From Nocardioides mesophilus (GTDB taxonomy: Bacteria; Actinomycetota; Actinomycetes; Propionibacteriales; Nocardioidaceae), in the NCBI RefSeq assembly GCF_014395785.1, contig NZ_CP060713.1, positions 3,066,501 through 3,130,500 of the forward strand: a stretch of DNA of 64,000 nucleotides, read 5' to 3'. Numbering within the stretch: the stretch's first letter is position 1; every line of letters begins with the position of its first letter. Of the stretch, positions 22,051 through 25,326 are shown one piece after another. A program made the position numbers and the translations under genes. The notes under the pieces are model-generated. The model was not told the DNA's origin, searched no databases, and was given only the letters and a program-made list of their open reading frames with translations.

Positions 22051-25000
22051 ATGACCCAGACCAGTACACAACCGACAGGCTCCAGCCTCACCTGCACGTT
22101 GGACATCGGCGGCATGACCTGCGCGTCGTGCGTGGGTCGCGTCGAACGCGCCCTGGGCAAGGTGGACGGAGTCACCGAGGCCAGCGTCAACCTGGCCACC
22201 GAGACCGCCACCGTCACCTTCGACCCCGGCAACGTCGAGGTCGCGCAGCTCACCGCCGCCGTCGGCAAGGCCGGGTACGTCGGCACCGTGCGCCCTGCGC
22301 CGAGCCGAACCGGCGAGGACGCTGCCGGACCCGTCGAGCCCGCGACCGAGCAAGGACGCCGCGACGCCGAGCGCGACGCACACATCGCGTCGCTGAAGCG
22401 CAAGTGGCAGGTCGCGCTCACTGCCGGCCTGGGGCTGATGGCCGTCATGTACGTGCCGATCTACCTCGACACCATGGACTGGCTGATGCCGCTGATCTTC
22501 GTGATCGCCAGCATCGTCCAGTTCTGGGCCGGCAGCGAGTTCTACAAGGCTGCCTGGGCGGCGGCCAAGCACGGCGCCACCAACATGAACACGCTGGTCG
22601 CGATGGGCACCGGTGTCGCCTACGGGTACAGCAGCTTCGTCACCTTGTGGCCGGGCCTGGCCGAGCGCTGGGGCCTCCCGCTGCACGTGTACTTCGAGAC
22701 CTCGCTGGTGATCATCGCGCTGGTGCTGATGGGCCGCTGGATGGAGGCGCGCGCCAAGAAGCGGACCGCCGAGGCGATCACCGCCCTGGTAGGGCTGTCG
22801 CCGAAGACCGCCCGCGTGGTGCGCGGCGACACCGAGGTCGACGTACCGCTGGAGCAGGTCGTCGTCGGCGACCTGGTCAGGGTCCGTCCCGGCGAGAAGA
22901 TCCCGGTCGACGGGGTCGTCACCGAGGGCACCTCCGCTGTCGATGAGTCGATGCTCACCGGCGAGAGCGTGCCGGCGACCAAGGCGGGCGGCGACGCCGT
23001 CATCGGCGCCACCATGAACCGCAGCGGCACCCTCGTCCTCCGCGCCACCGCCGTCGGCGCGGACACCACGCTGGCGCAGATCATCCGGCTCGTCGAGGAC
23101 GCCCAGGGCTCGAAGCCCCCGATGCAGCGGCTCGCCGACCAGGTCTCGAGCATCTTCGTGCCGGTGGTGCTGCTGCTGGCCGTCGCCACCTTCGCCGGCT
23201 GGGCCCTGTTCGGGCCCGACGCGGACCGGCTCACCCTGGCGATCGGAACCGCCATCGCGGTGCTCATCATCGCCTGCCCCTGCGCGCTGGGGCTGGCCAC
23301 GCCGACCGCGGTCATGGTCGGCACCGGCAAGGCCGCCGAGCTCGGCATCCTGATCAGCAACGGGGAAGCCCTCGAGACCGCCCACCGGCTCACCGCGGTC
23401 GTGCTGGACAAGACCGGCACCATCACCCACGGCCGGCCCGAGGTGGTCGCCATCGCGCCGGCCGAGGGCTGGGAACCCGACGCGCTGCTCGCCCTGGTCG
23501 CGGCGGCCGAGGTCGGCAGCGAGCACCCGGTCGCCGAGGCGATCGTCGCCTCGGCCCGGGAGCGGCAGCTGCCGCTGCCCGCCGCCACCGACTTCTCCGC
23601 CACTCCCGGGTTCGGCATCACCGCCACCGTCGACGGCCACCGCATCCTGGTCGGCAACCGGGCGCACCTGCACGCGGCCGGGACGATCACCGGTCCGCTG
23701 GAGCACGACGCCGACACCGCCGCCCGCGCCGGCCAGACCCCGATGTTCGTCGCGGTCGACGGGCTGCTCGCCGGCCTGATCGCGGTCGCCGACAGCGTGA
23801 AGCCGGAGTCCGCCGAGGCGGTCGCCCAGCTGCAGGCGCTGGGTCTGGAGGTGTGGATGATCACCGGCGACAACGCCGCCACCGCCCGCGCCATCGCCGC
23901 CGAGGTCGGGATCAGCAACGTGGTCGCCGAGGTGCTCCCGGCGGACAAGGCCGCCCGCGTCGCCGAGCTGCAGCAGCAGGGCCACGTGCTCGCCTTCACC
24001 GGCGACGGCATCAACGACGCCCCGGCGCTGGCCCAGGCCGACCTCGGCATCGCGATCGGCACCGGCACCGACGTCGCGATCGCCGCCTCCGACATCACCC
24101 TGGTCGGCGGCGACCTGCGCGGCATCGTCGCCGCGATCGCGCTGTCCCGGCGCACCGTGGCCACCATCAAGCAGGGCCTCGCCTGGGCGTTCGCCTACAA
24201 CGTGCTGCTGATCCCGGTCGCTGCCGGCGCGTTGTACTGGTGGGACCAGCTGCTGCTCGACCCCGTGCTCGCCTCCGCCGCGATGGCGATGAGCTCGGTC
24301 AGCGTGGTCACCAACGCCCAGCGGCTGCGCGGCTTCCGCCGGCCCGCCACCGCTCAGGAGATCCTGCACACCCGGCTGCGGGACCGCGCCGGCCAGTACG
24401 CCTACCTGACCGGCATCGCCGTGGTCGCGCTCGCACTCGGCTCGATGTTCACCTGGGCCAGCCGCACCGAGACCGCCGAACGCGGCATGAACGGCATCCT
24501 CGCCTGGACCGAGGGCATGGGCATGCCGATGCGGCCGGCGATGAGCGTCATGGAGACCACCGAGTCCGACCCGGTCAGCCCGCACGAGGCGGGACTCGAC
24601 GTGAACGTCGTCGTGCCCCGGGATGCCCTGCCCGGCCGGCCCACCCGGCTCACCGTCACCGTCCGCGACGCCGGCACCGGTGATCTGGTCGACGACCTGG
24701 TCCGCACCCACCAGGTGTGGATGCACATGATCATCACCCGCGCCGACCTCGCGACCTTCGCGCACATCCACCCCGAGCCCACCGGCACCGCGGGCGTGTA
24801 CGCCGTGAGCGCGACGTTCCCGACCGCCGGCCGCTACCTGGTGGCGACCGAGTTCCGTCGCCAGGGCCAGATGACCGACGTGCTCGACCGCCGCGCAGTC
24901 ACCGTGGGCGGCACGGGCACCCCCTCCCGGCCGGCCACCCTGCGCCAGGAGGACGTCCGCACCGCGACACGGGACGGCGTCACGATCACCCTGACCGGGG

Positions 25001-25326
25001 AGACCCGCGTCGGCGAGACCAGCGACCTGCACTTCGGCTTCGCCGATGCGGCCACGGGCGCCCCGGTCACCGATCTGCAGCCCTACCTCGGTGCCGCCGG
25101 CCACGTGGTGGTGATGCGTGCCGACGGCGCCACGTTCGGGCACCGGCACGCCGAGACCGAGGACGCGCAGGGCCGGCCGGTGTTCGCCGTCCCCGGCACC
25201 GAGTTCGGCCCGGAACTCGAGTTGCACGTCCGGTTCGACACCCCCGGCGACTACCGGCTGTGGGCACAGTTCCGACTCGCCGACGGCACTGTGGTCACCG
25301 CCCCGTTCCTGCTGCACGCCGGCTGA
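22051..25326 (+). CDS. copA: Copper P1B-type ATPase CopA with an extra C-terminal extracytoplasmic domain
   Basis: A 1091-residue Cu(I) exporter. HMA domain with GGMTCASC (about 20-27), eight-helix P1B core, TGES in the actuator domain, CPC at 409-411 in the metal-transport helix, phosphorylation Asp453 (DKTGT), HP motif in SEHPVAEA, and GDGINDAP. Beyond the usual end there is a ninth hydrophobic helix (about 783-805, [17 protein letters not shown]), a Met-rich link ([13 protein letters not shown]) and about 260 residues of beta-rich sequence with His/Met motifs ([31 protein letters not shown]). The odd helix count would put that domain outside the cell. ATG 22051 has GGCGGAG upstream. Confidence 0.93.

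Follow-up and report, generated by a model that had tools for sequence, protein, structure and literature searches.

The open reading frame at 22051-25326 on the plus strand of the window (the whole stretch of 64,000 nucleotides of Nocardioides mesophilus DNA that was analysed) runs for 1091 residues without an internal stop and encodes a CopA-type copper pump that is continued, in frame, by a ninth membrane helix and a tail which very probably lies outside the cell. The tail domain is usually the product of a separate gene, which in the loci examined mostly lies next to that of a pump. We consider it fairly probable that an extracytoplasmic accessory protein, which cop operons normally encode as a membrane-anchored protein in its own right, has here been joined through helix 9 to a P1B-1 Cu(I) exporter, and that it acts as a tethered acceptor on the exit side. 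The original prediction, of a CopA extended by a further helix, a Met-rich link and a beta-rich tail, is borne out by the single reading frame, the match to TIGR01511, the structural models and the recurrence of the fusion.

The fused gene, its pump core and its neighbours

On the basis of family models, motifs and a predicted eight-helix core, the fused protein is a P1B-1 copper-transporting ATPase, for which Cu(I) transport is predicted. It begins with an N-terminal HMA domain (residues 16-76, 22096-22278, plus strand as for all parts of the gene; Pfam PF00403, E 1.5e-17), followed by the pump core (residues 101-761, 22351-24333), assigned from TIGR01511, TIGR01525, invariant columns and the AlphaFold2 helices. 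TIGR01511, the NCBIfam model for copper-translocating P-type ATPases, matches residues 160-760 with 610 bits against a cut-off of 397. The P1B-1 motif set comprises CPC in M4, YN in M5 and MxxSS in M6, together with DKTGT and the HP motif; in the fused pump CPC occupies residues 409-411, DKTGT starts at 453, YN lies at 716-717 and MxxSS at 745-749, and an alignment of 23 pumps shows no variation in the CPC, DKTGT, YN, SEHP and M/SS columns. Residues 100-1091 were modelled by AlphaFold2 with 23 sequences; the model, which is of moderate confidence (mean pLDDT 78.6, pTM 0.60), has nine long helices, eight of which form the membrane core before residue 762, with the ninth as an addition. The CopA proteins of Archaeoglobus fulgidus and Escherichia coli resemble the fused pump in their HMA domain, eight-helix core and CPC, DKTGT, YN and MxxSS motifs, but the latter continues into the ninth helix and a further 285 or so residues; for A. 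fulgidus CopA, eight helices have been described (PMC7558416).

The nearest unfused pumps, from 25 loci of the class sample, have neither helix 9 nor tail and end 0 to 116 residues after M6. Another type of C-terminal extension, a short one with a DPVCGM (YHS-like) motif, follows M6 in six of these 25 (L065, L066, L068, L069, L071 and L072).

An assembly artefact or a chance reading frame is ruled out, because the frame is conserved and the fusion recurs in many genomes; within the tail, the third codon position is the most changed in five of five comparisons. A minus-strand frame of 1394 residues (21841-26025), which overlaps the fused gene, was interpreted as a shadow frame of the GC-rich coding sequence.

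Directly upstream of the fused pump, on the same strand, lies a gene for a copZ-like cytosolic copper chaperone of 69 residues with an HMA domain (21717-21926; Pfam PF00403, E 1.1e-19), and in a comparison of 15 fused copA loci most had copZ-like matches nearby. The flanks of these 15 loci also hold genes for an FAD-dependent oxidoreductase (Pyr_redox_3) in 11 cases, an MFS transporter in six, an isochorismatase-like protein in five and a LuxR-type protein in four, counts that are minima since several contigs end nearby. In the window, divergent genes for a Pyr_redox_3 FAD oxidoreductase and an MFS protein (32924-35731) lie about 7.6 to 10.4 kb downstream of the fused gene, and they are often nearer at other fused loci. 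A second stand-alone HMA (CopZ-like) gene of 77 residues, identified with the Pfam HMA model, is located away from the pump (32034-32267, plus strand), and a molybdopterin-binding oxidoreductase with a bacterial Ig domain (26823-28376, minus strand) is unrelated to the fusion. An apparent copZ-oxidoreductase fusion in L096/L097, suggested by the overlapping coordinates of two matches, was rejected on the grounds that the matches are in different frames, i.e. in adjacent or overlapping genes.

The ninth helix, the Met-rich link and the two domains of the tail

The ninth helix, predicted to run from the inside to the outside (N-in/C-out), spans residues of about 776-804 (24376-24462; positions 677-705 of the AlphaFold2 model) and is followed in the model by short helices in the link. 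Hydropathy picks the segment 786-804 as the candidate (value 1.66), so that the location first proposed, at about 783-805, is correct to within a few residues. Hydropathy by itself gives an untidy helix count, missing one core helix and flagging the soluble-domain stretches 565-583 and 667-685. The loop between M6 and helix 9 is basic in each of 11 fused proteins examined, with 5 to 8 Lys and Arg residues versus 1 to 3 Asp and Glu residues. Eight helices would end the pump in the cytosol; the predicted ninth therefore places the tail outside, as do the fit of these charges and the membrane anchors or lipobox-like starts of the separate homologues. In two genomes (L091 and L092) the tail domain occurs in lipoprotein-like versions with a lipobox-like motif, which likewise support an outside location. 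These predictions all favour a C-out rather than a cytoplasmic tail, and the extracytoplasmic placement made at the outset is very probably right.

The expected Met-rich link was found, from alignments of fused proteins and the Met count, at residues 812-836 (24484-24558). It has 6 Met in 25 residues (binomial P 4e-5 relative to the Met content of the protein itself, for a stretch picked after it had been seen), and its GMPMR and MSxM motifs are invariant across 14 aligned fused proteins. Thirteen further distinct fused proteins retain them, with the final Met replaced by Leu in two. This very strong conservation, and the position of helix 9 directly after the core, would suit a regulatory or sensing tail whose binding of copper outside the cell is relayed back to the pump by helix 9. 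Such a role is improbable in our judgement: the same domain occurs, free of any pump, as an anchored or lipoprotein-like protein, and a domain that works without a pump is more in keeping with copper handling than with regulation inside one molecule.

The tail proper is predicted to consist of two tandem Ig-like beta-sandwich domains. Some 260 beta-rich residues had been expected beyond the link, and an AlphaFold2 model of residues 830-1091, made with 50 related sequences (mean pLDDT 93.2, pTM 0.88), has strands only, arranged in two domains, at residues of about 848-952 (24592-24906) and 971-1091 (24961-25323). Comparison of the model with the PDB by Foldseek and VIA-align groups it with generic Ig-like folds of macroglobulin and filamin type; 3prx_A, for example, aligns to 101 residues of domain 1 with Z 9.2 and rmsd 2.8. 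The rows shown by the two programs name no copper protein, an absence that proves nothing, and fold matches of so generic a kind say nothing about copper; a sequence search of the PDB with the tail gave three matches, all at chance level (best E 0.31). With respect to sequence families, the tail is best described as YtkA-like: YtkA (Pfam PF13115) matches it weakly, in domain 1, at 24.9 bits, just below the cut-off of 25.9, and matches 35 of 50 relatives at E up to 0.01 (best 1.7e-6).

An alignment of 50 relatives, in which 14 fused tails are joined by 35 actinobacterial separate proteins and one from a Bdellovibrio assembly (36 in all), has 17 invariant columns. Seven of these are His, at 887, 892, 905 and 907 in domain 1 and at 1018, 1031 and 1033 in domain 2, and at least seven His among 17 invariant columns has a probability of 6e-6 by composition, so that the His and Met content to which attention had been drawn is not incidental. 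The layout is repeated in each domain, with one His on one strand of a modelled hairpin and an HxH pair on or just past the next strand, as expected of an internal duplication with one candidate metal site per domain. That the seven invariant His residues are arranged alike in both domains argues for metal sites; a structural role, or one in zinc binding, is possible. The scaffold- and adhesion-type Ig-like domains that make up the best structural matches would also fit an extracytoplasmic domain for contact with proteins or the cell wall, in which the His residues are structural or serve another metal. We regard this as very improbable, given that the invariant residues are His-rich in a repeated HxH pattern and that the family accompanies copZ, csoR and copA.

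Separate homologues and the origin of the fusion

A start codon and a hydrophobic segment precede the domain in all 55 separate homologues examined, as judged by script; the Kyte-Doolittle mean of this segment is at least 1.6 in 48 of them and 1.25 to 1.51 in the other seven, and a lipobox-like motif is present in four. The neighbours of 52 loci of separate homologues, mostly best-scoring matches rather than a random draw, were called by simple scripts: 44 of these loci have a P-type ATPase gene within 1.5 kb (41 on the same strand, three on the other), 34 a copZ-like gene and 15 a csoR-like gene. No pump lies within that distance in the remaining eight, one of which (L049) has a weak pump fragment on the other strand. 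Elsewhere in the window's own genome there is an operon of the order csoR-copZ-separate homologue-copA. The 35 actinobacterial separate proteins aligned are 29-36% identical to the window tail, and the Bdellovibrio protein 25%. The actinobacterial proteins share with the fused tail its two domains and seven invariant His residues, but have their own gene, a single N-terminal anchor and a link that is often His-rich, whereas the fused tail is in frame with the pump and has a Met-rich link. SCO1044 of Streptomyces coelicolor, which we guess from its gene number alone to be the separate homologue of that species, is predicted to be CsoR-modulated (PMC6414726).

The breadth of the fusion, which the original prediction had proposed to survey, was assessed in overlapping samples of the family, the class and relatives, using the tail from helix 9 as query and E up to 1e-5 as the threshold for homologues. 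Tail homologues are present in 170 of 294 family genomes, 133 of 394 class genomes and 32 of 58 genomes of relatives, and the fused form in 29, five (own genome included) and three of these, respectively. The two forms are separated by a score gap in all three samples, fused matches scoring at least 280 bits and all other matches listed at most 104. For the 29 fused family genomes, the fused locus was read in 20 (the window's own, L012, L013 and L110-L126); the other nine, as well as the second locus of G916, were called from a long reading frame (1051-1272 residues) and a match starting at helix 9 (query residue 3-6). L003, L004, L008 and L009 recur as identical DNA among L110-L126 and account for four of these, which leaves 14 + 13 = 27 distinct fused tails that were read. 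Named carriers of the fusion belong to Nocardioides and Georgenia, with one Marmoricola assembly. G916, a family genome, has two fused-type loci on its contig 2, 69% and 62% identical to the query.

Outside the class, where 13 of 396 genomes of a phylum sample match the tail at E up to 1e-20, one further fused copy, broken or split, was found in G791 (L103). The fused gene of Nocardioides ungokensis (L010) lies in two frames and was left out of alignment A1; both L010 and L103 reflect sequencing error or decay. Three candidates for independent fusions, matches that lie in long open frames (G349 contig 56, G012 contig 13 and G108 contig 110), proved, when read, to be separate proteins, two of them lipoprotein-like. 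All tail matches in 134 plasmid records are less than 60% identical, and no P-type ATPase annotation lies under the match in the 30 listed of the 134; the separate homologues in plasmid records are annotated mostly as hypothetical proteins, and also as heavy metal-binding or FixH family protein.

In FastTree trees with midpoint rooting, 28 fused tails (27 distinct) form one clade with support of 0.98, as do the fused pumps (17 entries, 13 distinct loci) with support of 1.0, which suggests a single origin. Sister to the fused-tail clade, with support of 0.98, is a separate protein carried by two genomes from a different class of the phylum. With the pump core as query, five places in the class sample are at least 70% identical, all of them fused, and the next are at most 56% identical. 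These sequence comparisons suggest that the fusion happened once and was then spread or lost. In 41 of 41 same-strand pairs the separate gene is upstream of the pump, so the fusion cannot have come about simply by the usual neighbours running together; the order of pump then tail, as opposed to the usual homologue then pump, will have needed a rearrangement.

A proposed role in copper handover and its relatives

Several known copper proteins bear likenesses to parts of the fused pump. YtkA-type proteins have been linked to the delivery of copper (PMC13344008, PMC9145763): YcnJ of Bacillus subtilis has the architecture CopC-CopD-YtkA and is a proposed importer with a C-terminal YtkA domain (PMC13344008), and CtaK is a YtkA-type extracytoplasmic lipoprotein with conserved His and Met residues, needed for the CuA site at low copper (PMC9145763). 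From these descriptions, YcnJ is like the fused pump a copper membrane transporter that ends in a YtkA domain, but is of the CopC-CopD type and not a P-type ATPase, and CtaK is like the fused tail YtkA-type and copper-related, but is a separate lipoprotein for CuA assembly. PMC7558416 states that copper is passed from CopA to the periplasmic chaperone CusF rather than released, and that CusF and CueP are extracytoplasmic copper proteins which interact with CopA. They are thus partners of CopA, as the tail is presumed to be, but are separate proteins of the Gram-negative periplasm with other folds (an OB barrel in the case of CusF). According to the same paper, CcoG is a copper protein of the membrane whose C-terminal periplasmic domain is Ig-like; in this it resembles the fused protein, but it is a cupric reductase and not a pump.

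Each part of the fused protein is known in kind. Their combination, in which a P1B pump continues through a ninth helix into a domain tethered outside the cytoplasm, did not turn up in the open-licence literature searched, and neither did a CopA-YtkA fusion. The contention that no characterised pump has such a layout therefore stands for that literature, but a copper transporter with a C-terminal YtkA domain, the importer YcnJ, has been described (PMC13344008); with a YtkA-like domain also at the end of YcnJ and as CtaK itself, the principle has relatives.

These relatives raise the alternative that the tail delivers copper for oxidase biogenesis, with the fused pump serving biogenesis in the manner of FixI/CcoI-type pumps instead of detoxification. 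The YtkA-like character of the domain, extending to 35 of 50 relatives, is consistent with such a role, as are the reports that, for Cta, there is partial redundancy between CtaK and the YcnJ YtkA domain (PMC13344008) and that a CtaK His118Tyr mutant is oxidase-defective (PMC9145763). Moreover, five of the seven fused genomes among the relatives and class samples also hold a second, separate-type match; the tail is thus not simply a replacement, and the fused pump may have another job. Weighing slightly against oxidase delivery, the fused gene sits with copZ, and its identified recurrent neighbours are the FAD oxidoreductase, MFS, isochorismatase-like and LuxR genes; we judge that reading rather unlikely. 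We lean towards a general role in handover, in preference to a label of pure detoxification or of delivery.

The conserved His and Met residues suggest that the tail may serve as an extracytoplasmic copper chaperone in such a handover; its copper binding, the transfer step and the physiological purpose are inferred. CopZ would load the fused pump in the cytosol, and the eight-helix core would export Cu(I). The Met-rich strap, leaving helix 9 beside the core, would be the first acceptor of the Cu(I), and the copper would then go to the His clusters that are conserved in both Ig-like domains. These domains may hold it at the outer face and either deliver it to cuproproteins or to the cell wall, or block its re-entry. 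That the strap on helix 9 and the two His-site Ig-like domains together form a built-in exit-side chaperone, by which a single polypeptide would carry out both export and handover at the outer face of the Gram-positive cell, is a more tentative proposal, and one on which we would put somewhat less than even chances.

The fusion bears on the question of how Cu(I) leaves a P1B pump and what receives it where the cell has no periplasmic partner of the CusF type. The natural fusion fixes the ratio of pump to presumed acceptor at 1:1, and makes handover directly testable by mutation of the Met strap or of a His cluster. By the fusion (Rosetta Stone) argument, it also provides a partner for a widespread family that is annotated, in plasmid records, mostly as hypothetical protein. 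If the proposed role of the tail is correct, the fused CopA would be the first P1B pump known, in the open-licence literature searched, to own both an entry-side metal carrier, its HMA domain, and an exit-side one.
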